A DNA stretch of 64,000 nt from an uncultured Gemmatimonadota bacterium (GCA_902826615.1 CADEFN010000001.1:992001-1056000); one strand, 5' to 3'. Positions 48,435 to 56,526 are shown, counted from the stretch's first letter. Numbers and translations: made by a program. The notes: generated by a model not told the origin, from the letters alone.

Positions 48435-50900
48435 ATGAAAGGGTCGCCTCCCCGCCGCATCCTCATCGTCGACGATTCCCCCGACGACGCCGAGCTTGTG
48501 CGCCGCGCGCTCACCCGCGGTGGTCTCACGGTGGTGACCACACGTGTTGACGACGCCGTGGCCTTTCGTCGCGCCTTGCTGGAGAAGTCGTGGGAGCTGG
48601 TCATCGCCGACTACTCGCAGCCGAGCTTTGGGGCGCTCACGGTGCTCGAGGTGTTGCGTGAGACGGCCGCCGACCTGCCGTGCATCGTGATTTCCGGAGT
48701 GGCGGGTGAAGACCGCGCGGTGGAAACCATGCGGGCAGGTGCCAAGGACTTCGTCAACAAGGATCGGCTGCAACGCCTGGTGCCGGCGGTACAGCGTGAG
48801 CTGGCCGAACGGGCCAATCGCGAGGACCGGGAGCAGATACGGCTCGAGGCTGTGGAACGCGACCGCCGTCTGCGCGCGGCCAGTGCTGGTCTCCTCGACC
48901 TGCTCCGCGGCCCCGATTTCGCGGCTGGCAACACCGAAGCGGTCTACTCTGAACTCACCGAGCTGGTCGCACGCACTCTTGAGGTGCAGCGCGTGGCCAT
49001 CTGGGTCTTCGAGCCCGGGCGCGAGCACTTCCGATGCATCGAATCGTTTGACAGTGCGATCGGCGTCCACAGCGGTGGCCAGCGTTTTTCGCGCAGCGAA
49101 TCGCCGGCCTACTTCGAGGCTCTCGAACACAACCGCTTTGTCGAAGCACACGACGGCACCGGTGAGCATGATGGCGAAGTTCGGACGGGTGATGCCGCCG
49201 TGCGATCGCAGCTCGATGCGGCCATCCGTCAGCGCGGCAAAATGGTCGGGGCGTTGTGCCTCGATCACGTCGGATCCCGGCGCGCCTGGCGCAGTGATGA
49301 GCAGGTCTTTGTCGGATCGATTGCCGACCTCGTGGCGCTCATCATGGAAACCGGTGAGCGGCAGCGTGCCGAGGTGGCGCTGCGCGAAAGCGAAGTGCGG
49401 TATCGCGAGTTGTGGCAGAATGCACTCGATGGCATGTGGACCATCGATCCGCAGGGCTGTGTGACGTCGGTCAACGAGGCGGGAAGCAAGCTCACCGGCT
49501 TTGCGCCCCAGGACGTGGTGGGCCGGCTCTTCACCGACTTCGTGGTCGACCGCGACGTGAACGCGGCCCGCCAGCACTTCGAGTCATTGGTGGCGCGTGC
49601 CGAGTATTCCCCGGGTCCGCAACCCTTCAACCTGCTCACGCGCGACCGCCGCAGTGTGCAGGTCGAGGCGACCGCACAGCGCATCGAACGGAACGGGGTG
49701 GTGGTGGAGATCCTCGCCATTGTGCGCGATGTGTCGCAGCGACGCGCGCTCGAGGCGCAGCTCCAACAGTCGCAACGGATGGAGGCCATCGGCCGTCTCG
49801 CCGGTGGCGTCGCGCACGACTTCAACAACCTGCTGACCGCGATCATCGGGTACTCGCAGATCGCCGCCATCAGACCTGACATGCCCGCACCCGCTGTGAT
49901 CGATCTCAAGGAGATCACCTCGGCGGCACACCGGGCGGCGGCACTCACTCGCCAGCTGCTCGCCTTCAGCAAGCGGCAGGTCCTCGAACCCCGCGTGCTG
50001 AATCTCAACGCGGTCGTTTCGGGAATCGAGGCGCTGCTGCGGCGGCTGATCGGCGAGGACATTGTGCTCGACACCGACCTCGATTCGGCGATCAGTCATG
50101 TGCTGGCCGATCCCAGTCAGCTCGAGCAGGTGATTCTCAACCTCGCCGTCAATGCGCGCGATGCCATGCCGACGGGTGGCCGGATTGTGCTGCGCACTCG
50201 CACGGCGGTGTCACTCGATCCGCGTGCCCTCATTACCGCGGATGCCGCGCCCGGACCTTTTGTGGTGCTCGAGGTCGAAGACACCGGCACCGGCATGGAC
50301 GAGACGACCCGTCAGCACATCTTCGAGCCCTTTTTCACTACCAAGGCGTTAGGCACCGGGCTCGGGTTGTCGACCGTGTACGGGATTGTGCAGCAAAGCG
50401 GTGGCGGGATTGCCGTGTCCAGCGAGCAGGGGAAGGGCTCGACCTTCGCGGTCTACCTGCCTGTCGCCGCCGGCAACGTGGACGAGCAGGCAGCGGCGGC
50501 CCCCCAGATGGGGCCGAGTGGGCACGAAACCGTGCTCGTGGTGGAAGACGATGACCGCGTGCGACTGCTGGCGACCCGTGTGCTGCGCCTCGCGGGGTAT
50601 ACCGTGCTCGAAGCGAGCGATCCGCAGGTGGCTATTGCCAGCACGCACGATGCCCCCGGCATCGACCTCCTGCTCACCGATCAGGTGCTGCCGTACATGC
50701 GGGGGGTCGAGTTGTATGAGCGGCTGCGGGCCACACGGCCCCGGATGAAGGTGTTGTTCATGTCCGGGTATCGTGAGGATCTCGAGTCTCCGGGGGTGCC
50801 GCCGACGGCGTTTCTTGGCAAGCCGTTCACTCCAGAGCTGCTGACCACCGCGGTGCGTCGCGTGCTTGATACGCGCGCGCAGCTGGAGTTGGAGCGCTGA
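48435..50900 (+). CDS. hybrid sensor histidine kinase, REC-GAF-PAS-HisKA-HATPase-REC
   Basis: An 821-residue cytoplasmic kinase with no TM segments. An N-terminal receiver (phospho-acceptor D59 in LVIADYSQPSF) is followed by a GAF-like domain (about 155-310) and a PAS domain (about 320-440). The dimerisation H-box is GGVAHDFNNLL (H461). The HATPase has N-box LNLAVNARDAMP, G1 VEDTGTGMD and FFTTKALGTGLGLSTVYG. A C-terminal receiver has Asp in LLLTDQVLPY. It starts 21 bp after the transporter ATPase; whether they are co-transcribed is uncertain. No output regulator is adjacent. Confidence 0.93.
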   Translation: MKGSPPRRILIVDDSPDDAELVRRALTRGGLTVVTTRVDDAVAFRRALLEKSWELVIADYSQPSFGALTVLEVLRETAADLPCIVISGVAGEDRAVETMRAGAKDFVNKDRLQRLVPAVQRELAERANREDREQIRLEAVERDRRLRAASAGLLDLLRGPDFAAGNTEAVYSELTELVARTLEVQRVAIWVFEPGREHFRCIESFDSAIGVHSGGQRFSRSESPAYFEALEHNRFVEAHDGTGEHDGEVRTGDAAVRSQLDAAIRQRGKMVGALCLDHVGSRRAWRSDEQVFVGSIADLVALIMETGERQRAEVALRESEVRYRELWQNALDGMWTIDPQGCVTSVNEAGSKLTGFAPQDVVGRLFTDFVVDRDVNAARQHFESLVARAEYSPGPQPFNLLTRDRRSVQVEATAQRIERNGVVVEILAIVRDVSQRRALEAQLQQSQRMEAIGRLAGGVAHDFNNLLTAIIGYSQIAAIRPDMPAPAVIDLKEITSAAHRAAALTRQLLAFSKRQVLEPRVLNLNAVVSGIEALLRRLIGEDIVLDTDLDSAISHVLADPSQLEQVILNLAVNARDAMPTGGRIVLRTRTAVSLDPRALITADAAPGPFVVLEVEDTGTGMDETTRQHIFEPFFTTKALGTGLGLSTVYGIVQQSGGGIAVSSEQGKGSTFAVYLPVAAGNVDEQAAAAPQMGPSGHETVLVVEDDDRVRLLATRVLRLAGYTVLEASDPQVAIASTHDAPGIDLLLTDQVLPYMRGVELYERLRATRPRMKVLFMSGYREDLESPGVPPTAFLGKPFTPELLTTAVRRVLDTRAQLELER

Positions 50901-51722: not shown

Positions 51723-52124
51723 ATGCCACGGAAGACACCGATCCTCCCGATCACCACCCGCCGCGAGCTCGCCACCCTCGGCACCGATCTCCAGCACGCC
51801 CGTCGCCGCCGTCGCCTCACCACGATGATGGTCGCCGAACGTGCGCAAATCACTCGACCGACGCTCCTCCGCGTAGAGCGCGGCGATCCCGGCGTGAGCC
51901 TCGGCGTCTACGCGACGGTGCTCTGGGTGCTCGGCTTCGGTGATCGGATCTCACGTCTCGCAGCGGCCGACACAGACACCGTCGGCCTGAGTCTGGAGGC
52001 TGAGCGTCTCCCGAAGCGCGTCTCGTCGCGTCGGCCGCGGGCCAAACGAAGCAAACGCGCCGCAACCGACACATCGAGTAATACGAACGCCGGCGTCAGA
52101 GAGCAGGACGGGACGCACGAATGA
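51723..52124 (+). CDS. hipB: HipB-like antitoxin, XRE-family HTH
   Basis: A 133-residue protein. The HTH lies at about residues 14-75 (LGTDLQHARRRRRLTTMMVAE, then ITRPTLLRVERGDPGVSLG). A long basic C-terminal tail is probably disordered. It would neutralise the HipA kinase and repress the operon. ATG 51723 follows the AT-rich operator region; a typical ribosome site is weak. Its TGA overlaps the HipA ATG (ATGA). The overall base use of the pair differs little from neighbours. Confidence 0.85.
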   Translation: MPRKTPILPITTRRELATLGTDLQHARRRRRLTTMMVAERAQITRPTLLRVERGDPGVSLGVYATVLWVLGFGDRISRLAAADTDTVGLSLEAERLPKRVSSRRPRAKRSKRAATDTSSNTNAGVREQDGTHE

Positions 52125-53401
52125 CCAGCCCCACCGCATACGTCTACATGGAGCTCGATGGTATCACGCGTCCCGTCGGCCGCTTGTGGGCGCACCGTGA
52201 TCGAAATCGCGAACGCGCGTCGTTCGAGTTTGATCGCGAATGGCTCGCGGACCCCGTGCGCCACGCACTCGGCCCTGCGTTGCCGGCGCAGGAAGGTGCG
52301 TTTCATACCGCCGAGGGGCGCGCACTCTTCGGCTCGCTGGGCGACTCGGCGCCGGATCGCTGGGGACGGCGACTCATCACGCGCAACGAAGCGCAGCGCG
52401 CGCGCGAGGCCCGGACAACGCCCCGCGCTCCGCGAGAGATCGACTTTCTGCTCGGCGTCACGGACGTCGTTCGCCAGGGTGCACTTCGTTTCCGCTTGGT
52501 GGAAGACGGACCGTTCGTCGCACCGTTCGGTGTCGACGAAGGCCAAGCGCATGTCCCACCGCTCATCGAGTTGCCGGCGCTGTTGAATGCCGCAAACGCG
52601 CTCGCGGACGACCCGGATTCCGTGGAGGCAGACAACGCTGTACGCCTGCTGCTCGCGCCGGGTTCCTCGCTCGGCGGCGCAAGGCCGAAAGCGTCCGTCC
52701 TCGATCACGGGGCACTCGCGATCGCGAAGTTTCCGGATCGGGCCGACACCATCGACGTGATCCGGTGGGAGCGGGTGATGCTCGAGCTGGCTCGGCGAGC
52801 CGGCATCAGTGTCGCTGACGCGGGGCTGCAAGATGTCGGTGATTCGGTCGTGCTCATCGTACGCCGATTTGATCGCAAGGGAGACCGGCGCATTCCGTTT
52901 CTTTCGGCGATGAGCCTCCTCGACGCGGCTGACGGTGATCAGCGAAGCTACGTCGAGATTTTCGACGCCTTGAGGCGAGTCGCAAGCGCGGCGGCGGAGG
53001 ACGGCGCGCAGCTCTGGCGGAGGCTGGCGTTCAACATCCTCGCATCGAACTTTGACGATCACCTTCGCAATCACGCTGTGCTGTTCGATGGTGACGCCTG
53101 GCGCTTGTCCCCGGCATACGATCTCAACCCCGTACCGGCGCACGCAAAGTCGCGCCACCTGTCGACGGCGATCAACCTTGACGGCGACACGACGGCCTCG
53201 ATCGAGCGTGCCGTCGACGCAGCGCCAGAGTTCTTTCTCAAGAAAAACGACGCGAAGCAGACCGCGATCGACGTGCGGCGCGTGGTGAAGCAATGGCGCA
53301 ACCTGGCGAGCCAGTTCGGCATTCGCCGCGATGAAGTGGAACGCATGACGGGTGCATTCGAACACGACGATGCCGAGACCGTCGATAGGTGGACCACTTA
53401 G
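52121..53401 (+). CDS. hipA: HipA-like serine/threonine kinase toxin
   Basis: A 426-residue HipA, close to the E. coli length. The N-terminal subdomain is followed by the phosphate-binding loop SSLGGARPKASV, the ATP lysine in LAIAKFPD, the catalytic loop NILASNFDDHLRNHAVLF and the metal-binding SPAYDLNP. All are present, so it should be active. Known HipA toxins phosphorylate aminoacyl-tRNA synthetases and cause growth arrest. Together with HipB it forms a type II toxin-antitoxin unit of the accessory region. Confidence 0.92.
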   Translation: MTSPTAYVYMELDGITRPVGRLWAHRDRNRERASFEFDREWLADPVRHALGPALPAQEGAFHTAEGRALFGSLGDSAPDRWGRRLITRNEAQRAREARTTPRAPREIDFLLGVTDVVRQGALRFRLVEDGPFVAPFGVDEGQAHVPPLIELPALLNAANALADDPDSVEADNAVRLLLAPGSSLGGARPKASVLDHGALAIAKFPDRADTIDVIRWERVMLELARRAGISVADAGLQDVGDSVVLIVRRFDRKGDRRIPFLSAMSLLDAADGDQRSYVEIFDALRRVASAAAEDGAQLWRRLAFNILASNFDDHLRNHAVLFDGDAWRLSPAYDLNPVPAHAKSRHLSTAINLDGDTTASIERAVDAAPEFFLKKNDAKQTAIDVRRVVKQWRNLASQFGIRRDEVERMTGAFEHDDAETVDRWTT

Positions 53402-53566
53402 GCATTCACAAGCCCGGCCGCACCGCACCGATCCGTTTGGACCCTCGGGGAACCCCCAGTATCCACGAGCTCTGCCGTGCGCTAACATGGCCGGACCTCT
53501 GACCCGCACTCCGCGCGTGGGGTGGTGGGTGCACCATGCAACGCGACATACCTGGGAGGCTGGACG

Positions 53567-53914
53567 ATGACGGCACCGCAACCACGAAATCACGAGATCG
53601 ATCTCAAGACAGCGACCGAGATGACAGAGCGTCACCGGAAAGGGGTGACGGTGCAGGGGTCTCGAGCCCCAGCAGAGGGTGACTTGGGGGGAATGTTCTC
53701 TCGCGATGCTGTGATCAAACTCCTGTCCCAGACCAACGCGCAGTATCTCCGGTTCTACTATGGTCGGAACGCGAAAGGGGGGCGCGAACTGGTGCTGGTT
53801 GCCGCCGATGCCAATGGCAACGACCTGACGGGAGACGGTGGGGTTGGTGCCCTTGACGGGCACATCCCGTGTCCTCCGTTCTGCCCGAATACTTTCAGCG
53901 CTTTGCGCGGTTAA
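53567..53914 (+). CDS. small protein with C-terminal CPPFCP motif (paralog 1)
   Basis: A 115-residue protein that I cannot assign to a named family. It begins at ATG 53567 with GGGAGG upstream. An N-terminal helix (IDLKTATEMTERHRK) is followed by a segment FSRDAVIKLLSQ, a beta strand pair LRFYYGRNAKGGRELVLVAADANGNDL, and the ending LDGHIPCPPFCP. Every one of these elements recurs in the next gene. I recall similar ~120-residue proteins ending in PCPP-x-C in Bacteroidetes, also without function. The paired Cys could bind metal, form a disulfide or be modified. Confidence 0.75.
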   Translation: MTAPQPRNHEIDLKTATEMTERHRKGVTVQGSRAPAEGDLGGMFSRDAVIKLLSQTNAQYLRFYYGRNAKGGRELVLVAADANGNDLTGDGGVGALDGHIPCPPFCPNTFSALRG

Positions 53915-53941
53915 CCGACCATCCAAACCGGAGAAGAACTC

Positions 53942-54322
53942 ATGACAGCCCGAAAAGAGTCGCGCCCCAAGCCCCTGCCCAAGCCGATCAACCAGCGCAT
54001 TCGCCTCAAAACCGCCATCGACCTGACCAAGCGGTACCAGCGCTCGGCGCCGGCCAGTGAGAAGGCTGGGTTCTTTTTTGCGTCGGGTCTCAAGGACTTG
54101 CTCGCGCAAGAAGGGGTTTATGGCATGCGGATCTACCACGGACTGGATAAGGATGGTCGTTATCGCATGGTGCTGGTCGGTGTGGACGCCAAGGGCGAGG
54201 ACATCACGTCAACTCGCCGCGTGGCGAAGAGCACCACTGCGTTCACTGCTTCCCAGGAAGCCGTGCTACTCGACGGCCACATTCCCTGTCCTCCGTTTTG
54301 CCCGCCCGGATCGCCTCTTTGA
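53942..54322 (+). CDS. small protein with C-terminal CPPFCP motif (paralog 2)
   Basis: A 126-residue paralog of the preceding gene, 27 bp downstream. Shared features in order are IRLKTAIDLTKRYQ, FFFASGLKDLLAQEG, MRIYHGLDKDGRYRMVLVGVDAKGEDI and LLDGHIPCPPFCPPGSPL. It has a basic, Pro/Lys-rich start and a longer linker before the motif. The tandem arrangement indicates local duplication with divergence. It is followed 18 bp later by a membrane protein gene and then a two-component pair, which suggests a link to signalling. Confidence 0.75.
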   Translation: MTARKESRPKPLPKPINQRIRLKTAIDLTKRYQRSAPASEKAGFFFASGLKDLLAQEGVYGMRIYHGLDKDGRYRMVLVGVDAKGEDITSTRRVAKSTTAFTASQEAVLLDGHIPCPPFCPPGSPL

Positions 54323-54340
54323 GTTAGCTGGTACAGGCGG

Positions 54341-55105
54341 GTGCCCGTGAGGGGCTGGGGAGCGTGGGTCGTCACAGGCCTAGTGTGGCTCGGCTTTCAG
54401 GCTTGGATGAACCAGGCCGTGGAGTCGCTAGTGTGGTGGCAGGCGGCGGTGATAAGTGCCGCCGTCGCCACGCAACTGCTCCCCACGCTTGCGGTGGTAG
54501 GCCTGCCAGACCCGCGTCCCCTCGCACGCAAGTGGATGGGGGTCTGGGGATTCGCGTTTTTCATCAGCGATGTGCTCCAGCTCTTCATTGCTGAGCACTT
54601 CGGTAACAACCTCTGGTTCCTCGCCATTGCCAATCCCATTGAGGACGCGGCACTTCTCTGGGCGCTCGCCTATTGGCAAACACGCCCGGTCATGCGGCTG
54701 ACCTTCAGGCTCGGCATCCCGGGGCTCGCGATTTCGACCATCGCCATCGCTGCGTACTTCGGCGAGGTTGCCGGCTTCAAGGCGGTGTCATCGCCCTTTC
54801 GCTTGCTGATCATCACCGCGGCCATCGCGTACACCATCGTGCATCGGTCGTTGCGAGAACCGGAACGGATACGGCAGCAGGACTGGTTCTGGGCGTGTCT
54901 CGGAGTCCTGCTCTACTACGCGGCGTACGTGGTGGTCGACCCGGTCACGGCGATGTTGATGCCCGCGCGGATGGACCTTGCGCGCCTTGTGTATGTTGTG
55001 AAGGCTGGGGTGGACACAGTCGCATTCATACTCGTCTGGAAGGGAATGGAATGCCCGGTGGAAACAACGTCTTCTACATCTATGTCGGAGCCGTCCTCGC
55101 GGTAG
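54341..55105 (+). CDS. polytopic membrane protein, possible sensor module
   Basis: A 254-residue protein with about seven hydrophobic helices (WVVTGLVWLGFQAW; AAVISAAVATQLLPTLAVV; ALLWALAYWQTRP; LAISTIAIAAYFGEVAGF; LLIITAAIAYTIVH; ACLGVLLYYAAYVVV; AGVDTVAFILVWKGM). No catalytic motif is seen. GTG 54341 is the likely start. Its last 55 bp overlap the start of the sensor kinase gene in another frame, an unusually long overlap. It could be the membrane sensing partner of that kinase. Confidence 0.65.
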   Translation: MPVRGWGAWVVTGLVWLGFQAWMNQAVESLVWWQAAVISAAVATQLLPTLAVVGLPDPRPLARKWMGVWGFAFFISDVLQLFIAEHFGNNLWFLAIANPIEDAALLWALAYWQTRPVMRLTFRLGIPGLAISTIAIAAYFGEVAGFKAVSSPFRLLIITAAIAYTIVHRSLREPERIRQQDWFWACLGVLLYYAAYVVVDPVTAMLMPARMDLARLVYVVKAGVDTVAFILVWKGMECPVETTSSTSMSEPSSR

Positions 55106-55812
55106 GTGTCATCGTTTTCGCACTGGGTATCGCCGTCGTGTTCTATCAGCGGCGATTCGTGGCCCTCCACCGCGACTACTCCAAGAAGCTCATCGCCGCG
55201 CACGAAGAAGAACGCGCCTACGTTGCCCGCGAAGTGCACGACGATGCTCTCCAGCGCGTGGCCATGTTGCAGCACGATGTCGGCGAATGGATGGATGCTC
55301 CCCCCGACACCACCAACGAACGCGCTCTTTCCACGGCGATCCGCCAGGAAATTGCCGACCTCGGCACCATGCTCCGCGGGGTCGCCCACCGCCTGCATCC
55401 CGCCATCATCGATCAGGGAGGCTTGAGCCCCGCACTCGTTCAGCTTGCCGGTGACACCACCCGAATCACCTCCCTCGACGTCACCGCACGGGTCCCGCAA
55501 TCGGCCGGCCGGATCCTGGACCGCGATAGAGAGATCATTCTCTTCCGCATCGCCCAGGAGGCCCTGCGCAACGTCGCGAAACACGCCGCCGCCACCCGCG
55601 CAGAGATCGCCCTCGAGGTATCCCCGAAAAATCTTGTGATGTCCGTCACCGATAACGGTCGCGGGTTCGACACCGCAGACTCCGATCGGGCCAGCGGGCT
55701 CGGCCTCATTAGTATGCAGGAGCGTGCCCGACTTGTGAGCGGCTCATTCTCCCTGTTGTCGAAACCGGGCGGAGGCACAACTATTCGGGTGAGTATTCCC
55801 CTGTCCTCCTGA
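55051..55812 (+). CDS. sensor histidine kinase, HisKA_3 (NarX/LiaS type)
   Basis: A 253-residue kinase with one TM helix (about 9-32) and almost no extracytoplasmic domain. The HisKA_3 motif is AREVHDDALQRV (H63). The HATPase has LFRIAQEALRNVAKHA and VTDNGRGFDTADSD, then GLGLISMQERA. ATG 55051 has GGAAGGGAA upstream and lies inside the previous gene. With so little sensory domain, it probably receives its input from the adjacent membrane protein or the small proteins. The response regulator follows after 3 bp. Confidence 0.88.
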   Translation: MPGGNNVFYIYVGAVLAVGVIVFALGIAVVFYQRRFVALHRDYSKKLIAAHEEERAYVAREVHDDALQRVAMLQHDVGEWMDAPPDTTNERALSTAIRQEIADLGTMLRGVAHRLHPAIIDQGGLSPALVQLAGDTTRITSLDVTARVPQSAGRILDRDREIILFRIAQEALRNVAKHAAATRAEIALEVSPKNLVMSVTDNGRGFDTADSDRASGLGLISMQERARLVSGSFSLLSKPGGGTTIRVSIPLSS

Positions 55813-55815
55813 CCC

Positions 55816-56526
55816 TTGCGACGCGCCGCCGTTCTGATCTGTGACGATCACCCCCTGATGTCCCAGGGGTTGAAGGCGCTGCTCCGTCCCTCCTTTTTGT
55901 GTGTAGGGATTGTGAACGACGGGCGCGAACTCGTCGATTCGCTGGGGAAAACGAAGCCGGACGTGTTGTTGCTCGACCTCTCCATGCCCAACATCAACGG
56001 GCTCGAACTCCTGCCGATGGTGCGGCAGCAGTTCCCGGAGTTGAAAGTGCTGGTGGTGACCATGCATGTGGATCGTGCCCTGGCCGACCTTGCCATCAAT
56101 TCCGGCGCAAATGGATTCATCCCCAAGGAATCCTCGGCTGAAGAGCTCAACGCGGCGATCGATCACGTGTTAAGCAATGCGAAGCCGTTCATCTCACCAA
56201 GAGTACCTCGGCGCTCGTTTCGTGACGGCGCCGCCGTGGAGCATCCCGCGCTCGACCGGCTCACTCCGCGTCACCGCGAAATTCTCCGAATGATTGGCGA
56301 CGGCGCCTCGTCGCAGGAAATGGCTCAAACCCTCGGGGTGAGTCCACGCACCGTGGAATTCCATCGGGCGAGCATTCGCAAAGTGCTGGGGATAACGACG
56401 GAGTGGGGATTGATGCGGTTTGCGATCATGCTGCGGGTCTCGGACGGCGAGTCTCCGGCCGAAGGATCAGCCGACTCGGGCCATTTGACCACATTCGGGC
56501 AGGAGCCCCCCCAGGCGCACGCCTGA
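55816..56526 (+). CDS. NarL/FixJ-family response regulator
   Basis: A 236-residue regulator. The receiver has the acidic pair ICDDH, phospho-acceptor D54 in LLLDLSMPNINGLE and Lys in FIPKESS. A LuxR-type HTH follows (LTPRHREILRMIGDGASSQE and MAQTLGVSPRTVEFHRASIR). The start is TTG 55816, 3 bp after the kinase stop; no better codon is nearby. The C-terminal ~30 residues are extra and low in complexity. Possible target repeats lie just downstream (56549-56670). Confidence 0.92.
   Translation: MRRAAVLICDDHPLMSQGLKALLRPSFLCVGIVNDGRELVDSLGKTKPDVLLLDLSMPNINGLELLPMVRQQFPELKVLVVTMHVDRALADLAINSGANGFIPKESSAEELNAAIDHVLSNAKPFISPRVPRRSFRDGAAVEHPALDRLTPRHREILRMIGDGASSQEMAQTLGVSPRTVEFHRASIRKVLGITTEWGLMRFAIMLRVSDGESPAEGSADSGHLTTFGQEPPQAHA

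Follow-up and report, generated by a model that had tools for sequence, protein, structure and literature searches.

The locus analysed here lies in a 64,000-nucleotide stretch of an uncultured Gemmatimonadota bacterium (GCA_902826615.1, CADEFN010000001.1:992001-1056000), which as a whole we call the window and whose genome is 5.9 Mb. It comprises two small paralogous proteins (SM family), a seven-helix membrane protein (7TM; TM family), a histidine kinase and a response regulator, together with an upstream palindrome:

53437..53466 (core 53443-53460, CCTCGGGGAACCCCCAGT), no strand assigned: putative degenerate copy of a palindromic operator 5' of the operon, PWM score 24.3
53567..53914, + strand: SM-A (P0001, 115 aa), AF2 model with a mean pLDDT of 86, without family or fold match
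53870..53884, + strand: CPPFC tail motif of SM-A (residues 102-106), read from the sequence
53942..54322, + strand: SM-B (P0002, 126 aa), paralog of SM-A by homology search
54287..54301, + strand: CPPFC tail motif of SM-B (residues 116-120), peptide identical to that of SM-A
54341..55105, + strand: 7-helix membrane protein (P0003), AF2 model with a mean pLDDT of 92.7, GPCR/rhodopsin-like bundle, without significant Pfam family
55051..55812, + strand: histidine kinase (P0004) with HATPase_c, HisKA_3 and H-box, one membrane helix (residues 12-30), without sensor domain
55816..56526, + strand: NarL/LuxR-type response regulator (P0005) with Response_reg and GerE, start codon TTG

The coordinates of the five genes in a preliminary description of this DNA proved exact, as did the four intergenic gaps of 27, 18, -55 and 3 bp, and good ribosome-binding sites (GGGAGG and GGAG) are found at the ATG of both small proteins. 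The paralogy proposed for these two is borne out by P0001 retrieving P0002 at 2e-11. Among the motifs they were said to share, LKTA, R-x-Y-x-G, VLVxxDAxGxD and DGHIPCPPFCP are present in both, but FxxxxLKDLL occurs in P0002 only, P0001 having FSRDAVIKLL in its place, and the reported LVLV does not hold for P0002, which reads MVLV. Neither protein has a signal peptide. An Rfam search of the locus and a search of plasmid records gave no match, and a scan for sigma-70-type promoters found none. Directly 5' of the operon lie adjacent HTH and HipA-like genes (51723-53401; HTH_31, Couple_hipA, HipA_C), likely a hipBA toxin-antitoxin pair, and further upstream a hybrid sensor kinase with receiver domains (48435-50900), to which related genes also precede the module in L033, L034 and L035. 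On the 3' side of the regulator, P0006 (56677-57465; no Pfam match) is conserved in the five nearest loci (L033, L034, L036, L037, L047) and not beyond.

Searches of Pfam, NCBIfam and PDB sequences with single SM proteins and with the family gave no match, and no published description of the family was found in the literature searched. The SM-A model shows a beta hairpin together with two helices and terminates in an ordered tail, and comparison of the SM model with PDB folds (Foldseek/VIA) returned no E-value below 0.17 and a best Z of 2.6, i.e. no convincing neighbour. Homologs of P0002 occur in 37 of 198 related genomes, and a profile search of 395 genomes of the phylum confined the SM matches to three families of one order, the Gemmatimonadales. 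The family is also present in Ignavibacteriales, Calditrichota, Edwardsbacteria, Fermentibacteria and Bacteroidota, as seen in a scan of named genomes for conserved peptide patterns, which does not prove absence from other phyla; in an evenly drawn sample of Bacteroidota, 33 of 296 carry it. Most SM proteins, both window copies included, have no signal peptide, and 11 from scattered lineages carry, by a simple hydropathy rule, a Sec or lipoprotein signal or an N-terminal anchor (L095, L097, L102, L107, L184, L186, L190, L197, L206, L216, L221). Some loci have the SM duplicated or tandem-fused (L039, L099, L192, L195).

We then compared the presence of the SM and TM families genome by genome. 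Both are found in 38 genomes, SM alone in none, TM alone in 2 (G144 and G004, the latter a fragment) and neither in 156 (Fisher 1.5e-38, with relatives that are not independent, and with G146 left out for a marginal SM hit, E 4e-4, containing a stop codon). The expected association of the small proteins with the 7TM protein and the two-component pair is thus strong, and, far from SM homologs never lying near such two-component genes, the same-strand order SM-7TM-kinase-regulator is present in 94 of the 111 loci with enough downstream sequence. Most of the other loci have the 7TM protein with a different output, or a 7TM protein too divergent for the profile, as in L188 and L191, where it is visible between SM and kinase and was missed. 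True exceptions to the gene order are few: L107, which has a divergent TM-kinase-regulator set in its neighbourhood, L133, L195, and the fragmented contigs L039 and L067. On the short contig of L067 (2-3904; G086) two SM genes, the one at the contig edge incomplete, are separated by other ORFs, of which one (396-1553) is transposase-like, a possible insertion into the module of this genome. The modules of Niastella-type genomes (L106-L136, e.g. L120) have a second 7TM homolog and a divergent same-family regulator at their flanks, and several of these genomes carry further TM-kinase-regulator sets without SM near the module.

The only protein families that recur across clades near the module are SM, TM, kinase and regulator. 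Partial distance correlations between them are 0.28 for SM-TM (p 0.001), 0.40 for TM-HK and 0.50 for HK-RR, with further positive values for SM-HK (0.16, p 0.004) and TM-RR (0.32) and a negative one for SM-RR (-0.14); these values, from partial Mantel tests on distances that can be confounded by rate differences, agree with a chain SM-7TM-kinase-regulator. Given the match between P0001 and P0002, the homologs in the relatives and an order that recurs in ~100 loci of several phyla, the arrangement of the locus is not a matter of chance. Overall, these data indicate that the module is real, widespread and, as far as the searched literature and libraries show, undescribed; the preliminary description, which had proposed an undescribed operon-encoded signalling system, is supported and had understated the case. 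What is new is the two families, SM and 7TM, and the fact that they are paired almost without exception and combined with interchangeable outputs that have a single helix.

The seven helices noted for P0003 are a family-wide feature, to which the P0003 model adds an extra N-terminal helix. By the positive-inside rule, the family-wide helices would have an N-out/C-in topology. The top rows of Foldseek and VIA searches with the P0003 model are all GPCRs, rhodopsins or designed GPCR-like folds, the best match reaching Z 13.7 over 195 residues with an rmsd of 3.6. Note that the tool gives values close to a Z of ~13 for common helical bundles, that Foldseek E-values against GPCRs and rhodopsins are never below 0.02, and that TM-scores stay at or below about 0.5 with no sequence match; the likeness is thus a resemblance and not homology. 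Pfam searches with P0003 and 74 family members gave no significant family, and no match to 7TMR-DISM. In the alignment's own numbering, the most conserved residue of the TM family is W184 (70 of 74), and the commonest residues of their columns are E101 in helix 3 (48/74) and D77 in helix 2 (38/71). P0003 has a lysine in helix 7 and its relatives have other residues; as the retinal-binding lysine is not conserved, we reject a reading as microbial rhodopsin.

By their domain matches, P0004 and P0005 are a two-component system of the HisKA_3/NarL type and ordinary members of it. P0004 matches HATPase_c at 1.3e-14 (55 bits; cut-off 26.4) and HisKA_3 at 0.0011 with 19.9 bits, under the curated cut-off of 24, and its H-box AREVHDD (AREVHDDALQRV) is intact, while P0005 matches Response_reg at 2.1e-26 (92.7 bits) and GerE at 2.6e-12 (46.6 bits). 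The kinase had been described as having almost no sensor domain, and it is indeed limited to one membrane helix ahead of its catalytic part, the sensor domain being absent. The pair is not the constant component of the module. The SM-7TM pair precedes PAS-HisKA hybrid kinases in L097, L102 and L186, PAS-HisKA kinases in L099 and L182, histidine kinases with no adjacent regulator detected in L055 and L058, and in Edwardsbacteria (L101, with L104 a near twin) a PAS-GGDEF-HD protein. Each of the 13 output proteins checked has a short N-terminus and, by a hydropathy rule, exactly one predicted membrane helix. As the outputs vary while SM and 7TM stay, these two are the constant input and the single-helix output is the variable part.

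The CPxxC end is present in 86 of 130 SM domains. Another 8 members keep xPPxxD in the tail with the second cysteine lost, one of them without the first cysteine too; about 30 have no tail, and in a large Chitinophagaceae group the SM end is acidic/aromatic instead of CPPxC. The tail is therefore not obligatory for the SM family. Where it is present, the tails of the two paralogs match within a genome. In the window, the tail peptides of SM-A and SM-B are the same with 5 of 12 codons differing synonymously, and in the six Gemmatimonadaceae genomes with the old duplication both paralogs carry an identical x in CPPxC (F, F, W, F, Y, W; permutation 1/60), although their 72 tail codons include 31 synonymous and 3 non-synonymous differences. 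Over all loci x matches in 11 of 12 SM pairs against an expected 19% each, these pairs being related and some of them recent tandem duplicates. Matching x residues with synonymous codon divergence suggest a shared partner that reads the tail, and the best reading of the CPPxC tail is a recognition element whose x matches between the paralogs of a genome. Gene conversion alone is an unlikely source of the matching tails, since the synonymous codons differ; an old conversion followed by drift may account for them.

The preliminary description had taken the tail for a functional element, in the form of a metal site, a redox switch or a modified peptide. The tail is under selection, which points to a functional element, but the specific forms named are not supported. 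An obligatory metal site or redox switch does not fit the 8 members without the second cysteine or the Chitinophagaceae clade without the tail, and the obligatory metal site is rejected. A modified peptide (RiPP) is likewise rejected, as across clades only the four families of the module recur, with no maturation enzyme, peptidase or exporter recurring beside it. A role as export signal in place of a signal peptide is unlikely because the SM proteins with signal peptides mostly retain the tail. Two Saprospiraceae genes upstream of the 7TM gene encode proteins of differing length and divergent body that bear the tail near the C-terminus: YPCPPYCGD in L137 (290-1204, 305 aa) and CPPICGNQNSPLN in L221 (4367-4915), which has a lipoprotein signal.

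The palindrome was detected as an excess of dyads over shuffles. Its family consensus, ACTRGGG-N4-CCCYAGT, stands ~80-135 bp before the SM gene in many Gemmatimonadales, the form ACTAGGG-N4-CCCTAGT being conserved before the operon in many of them; in L040 it lies at -216 from the start codon used. The window copy, at -124 from the first start codon, has 2 mismatches and is not significant taken alone; at the corresponding position relatives have near-perfect copies. In 468 kb of loci the PWM gave 13 hits scoring above 24, every one of them upstream of an SM gene, a count that tests specificity and is not an independent discovery, as the PWM was trained on SM promoters. In loci of family f3 the variant GACTATGGGATCCCATAGTC goes along with a regulator whose recognition helix differs, and in Chitinophagaceae another dyad, ATAGTAAAAATACTAT, is found upstream of SM. 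Genome-wide, where the search used patterns only, exact copies are rare and at one mismatch the real pattern occurs about as often as the reversed control, which permits no claim of a regulon. A near-copy, ACTGGGGTTTSCCCGAGT (G002 and G030, weaker in G003), lies directly 5' of a GAF/PAS histidine kinase gene that adjoins the gene of a small hydrophobic protein, a possible second target (L249 (1936), L254 (2026), L250 (1942)).

We consider it probable that SM and 7TM form a receptor unit driving the single-helix output protein, the whole being a self-contained signalling module. This reading is built on computed evidence: the order of the genes, the co-occurrence of the two families, the exchange of outputs and their single helix, the resemblance in fold, the matching tails and the conserved palindrome. 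The 7TM protein would be a receptor with a GPCR/rhodopsin-like bundle, and SM the partner dedicated to it, either a regulatory subunit or a ligand of protein nature, presumably in physical contact with it, for which the CPPxC tail, where present, would be an important recognition element. Binding, release or a change of state of SM would alter the 7TM protein, which would relay the change through membrane helices into the one N-terminal helix of the output protein, the likely direction of signalling, in a helix-to-helix relay comparable to sensory rhodopsin II driving its transducer HtrII. In the window, the HisKA_3-type kinase would then phosphorylate the NarL-type regulator, which probably binds the palindrome 5' of the operon and so would control its own module.

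Several considerations weigh against the receptor-unit reading. In most loci the kinase is no less constant than the 7TM protein, so that SM could act on the kinase; most SM proteins have no signal peptide, so that contact of SM with the receptor's outer face is uncertain; and the GPCR-likeness of a helical bundle with such E, TM-score and Z values is weak evidence. The positive SM-HK and TM-RR correlations, the possible confounding of the Mantel tests, the roughly 30 members that have no tail and the degenerate palindrome of the window count against it as well. If SM were instead a feedback inhibitor or connector in the manner of MgrB or CpxP, the regulator would control its expression and SM in turn would damp or tune the kinase or the receptor, with the cysteine pair reporting redox state. 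Its place as first gene behind a conserved palindrome, its small size and conserved cysteine pair, the 11 members with signal or lipoprotein peptides and the precedent of MgrB, in which two periplasmic cysteines are required (PMC8404706), speak for such a role. However, the pair is lost in several clades despite retained gene order, and SM-7TM persists with a GGDEF/HD protein in the kinase's place, where the partner would be the 7TM protein; we regard this role as rather unlikely.

Less likely still is cell-cell signalling, in which SM or a C-terminal piece of it would be exported as an autoinducer for the 7TM receptor, in a layout like agrBDCA/comQXPA. The set of a precursor-like small protein, a multi-TM protein, a kinase and a regulator is suggestive, as are the occasional duplication or tandem fusion of SM (L039, L099, L192, L195), the joint switching of the tail residue in paralogs, the exported SM forms and the possible autoregulation, but the SM body is conserved over phyla beyond the tail, no peptidase or exporter recurs beside SM, the tail varies little among species and most SM proteins are without a signal peptide. 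That SM is a mere regulated effector of the two-component system with no part in sensing we hold to be very improbable: as first gene it carries the palindrome, but it stays with the 7TM protein when the output is a GGDEF/HD protein with no same-family regulator detected downstream, the SM-RR partial correlation is negative, and SM is absent wherever 7TM is absent.

Two families unnamed in the libraries searched make up a conserved receptor-like unit of several phyla, cultivable Bacteroidota included, which would add a split receptor, a small protein plus a bare 7TM bundle, to the sensing modes of bacterial kinases, with the single membrane helix as a common plug accepting different outputs. 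The module offers a small, concrete test system for the way in which a GPCR-like bundle controls a kinase and for what the CPPxC tail recognises. More speculatively, and with more doubt than belief, we can picture a bacterial GPCR-like receptor pathway in the FCB superphylum: a genetically encoded protein partner would gate the 7TM receptor through the CPPxC tail, and one membrane helix could connect the receptor to kinases or c-di-GMP enzymes, possibly for self-recognition or cell-cell signalling.

Among known systems, agrBDCA and comQXPA have a small protein, a membrane or processing protein, a kinase and a regulator in one operon. The module differs from these in having no evident processing enzyme, an SM body conserved across phyla and a 7TM protein without match to a known family. 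In the 7TMR-DISM and LytS-type receptors known so far, the helices are fused to an output domain. These receptors, BtsS among the LytS type, are bacterial seven-helix receptors with signalling outputs (PMC10653868, PMC6107284); unlike them, the 7TM protein of the module is a separate bare bundle, without Pfam match and with a constant small partner. In sensory rhodopsin II, a separate seven-helix receptor acts via the membrane helices of the transducer HtrII into a phosphorelay (PMC5292967, PMC3274258), and the 7TM protein of the module is likewise a separate seven-helix protein; however, its family has no conserved retinal lysine in helix 7, HtrII has two membrane helices where the outputs of the module have one, and SM has no counterpart there. 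MgrB is a regulon protein of 47 residues, which inhibits PhoQ and depends on two periplasmic cysteines. It resembles SM as a small protein that has a functional cysteine pair and belongs to the regulon of the system under its control (PMC8404706), but it is a membrane protein acting on a kinase, whereas SM is soluble, of ~110 residues, and paired with a 7TM protein. NarX/NarL, UhpB/UhpA and MctS/MctR, finally, are ordinary relatives of P0004 and P0005 (MctS 7e-36, UhpB 5e-29, MctR 2e-42), from which the module differs in that the matches are far below curated cut-offs and that the sensor function appears to have moved to the separate SM and 7TM proteins.
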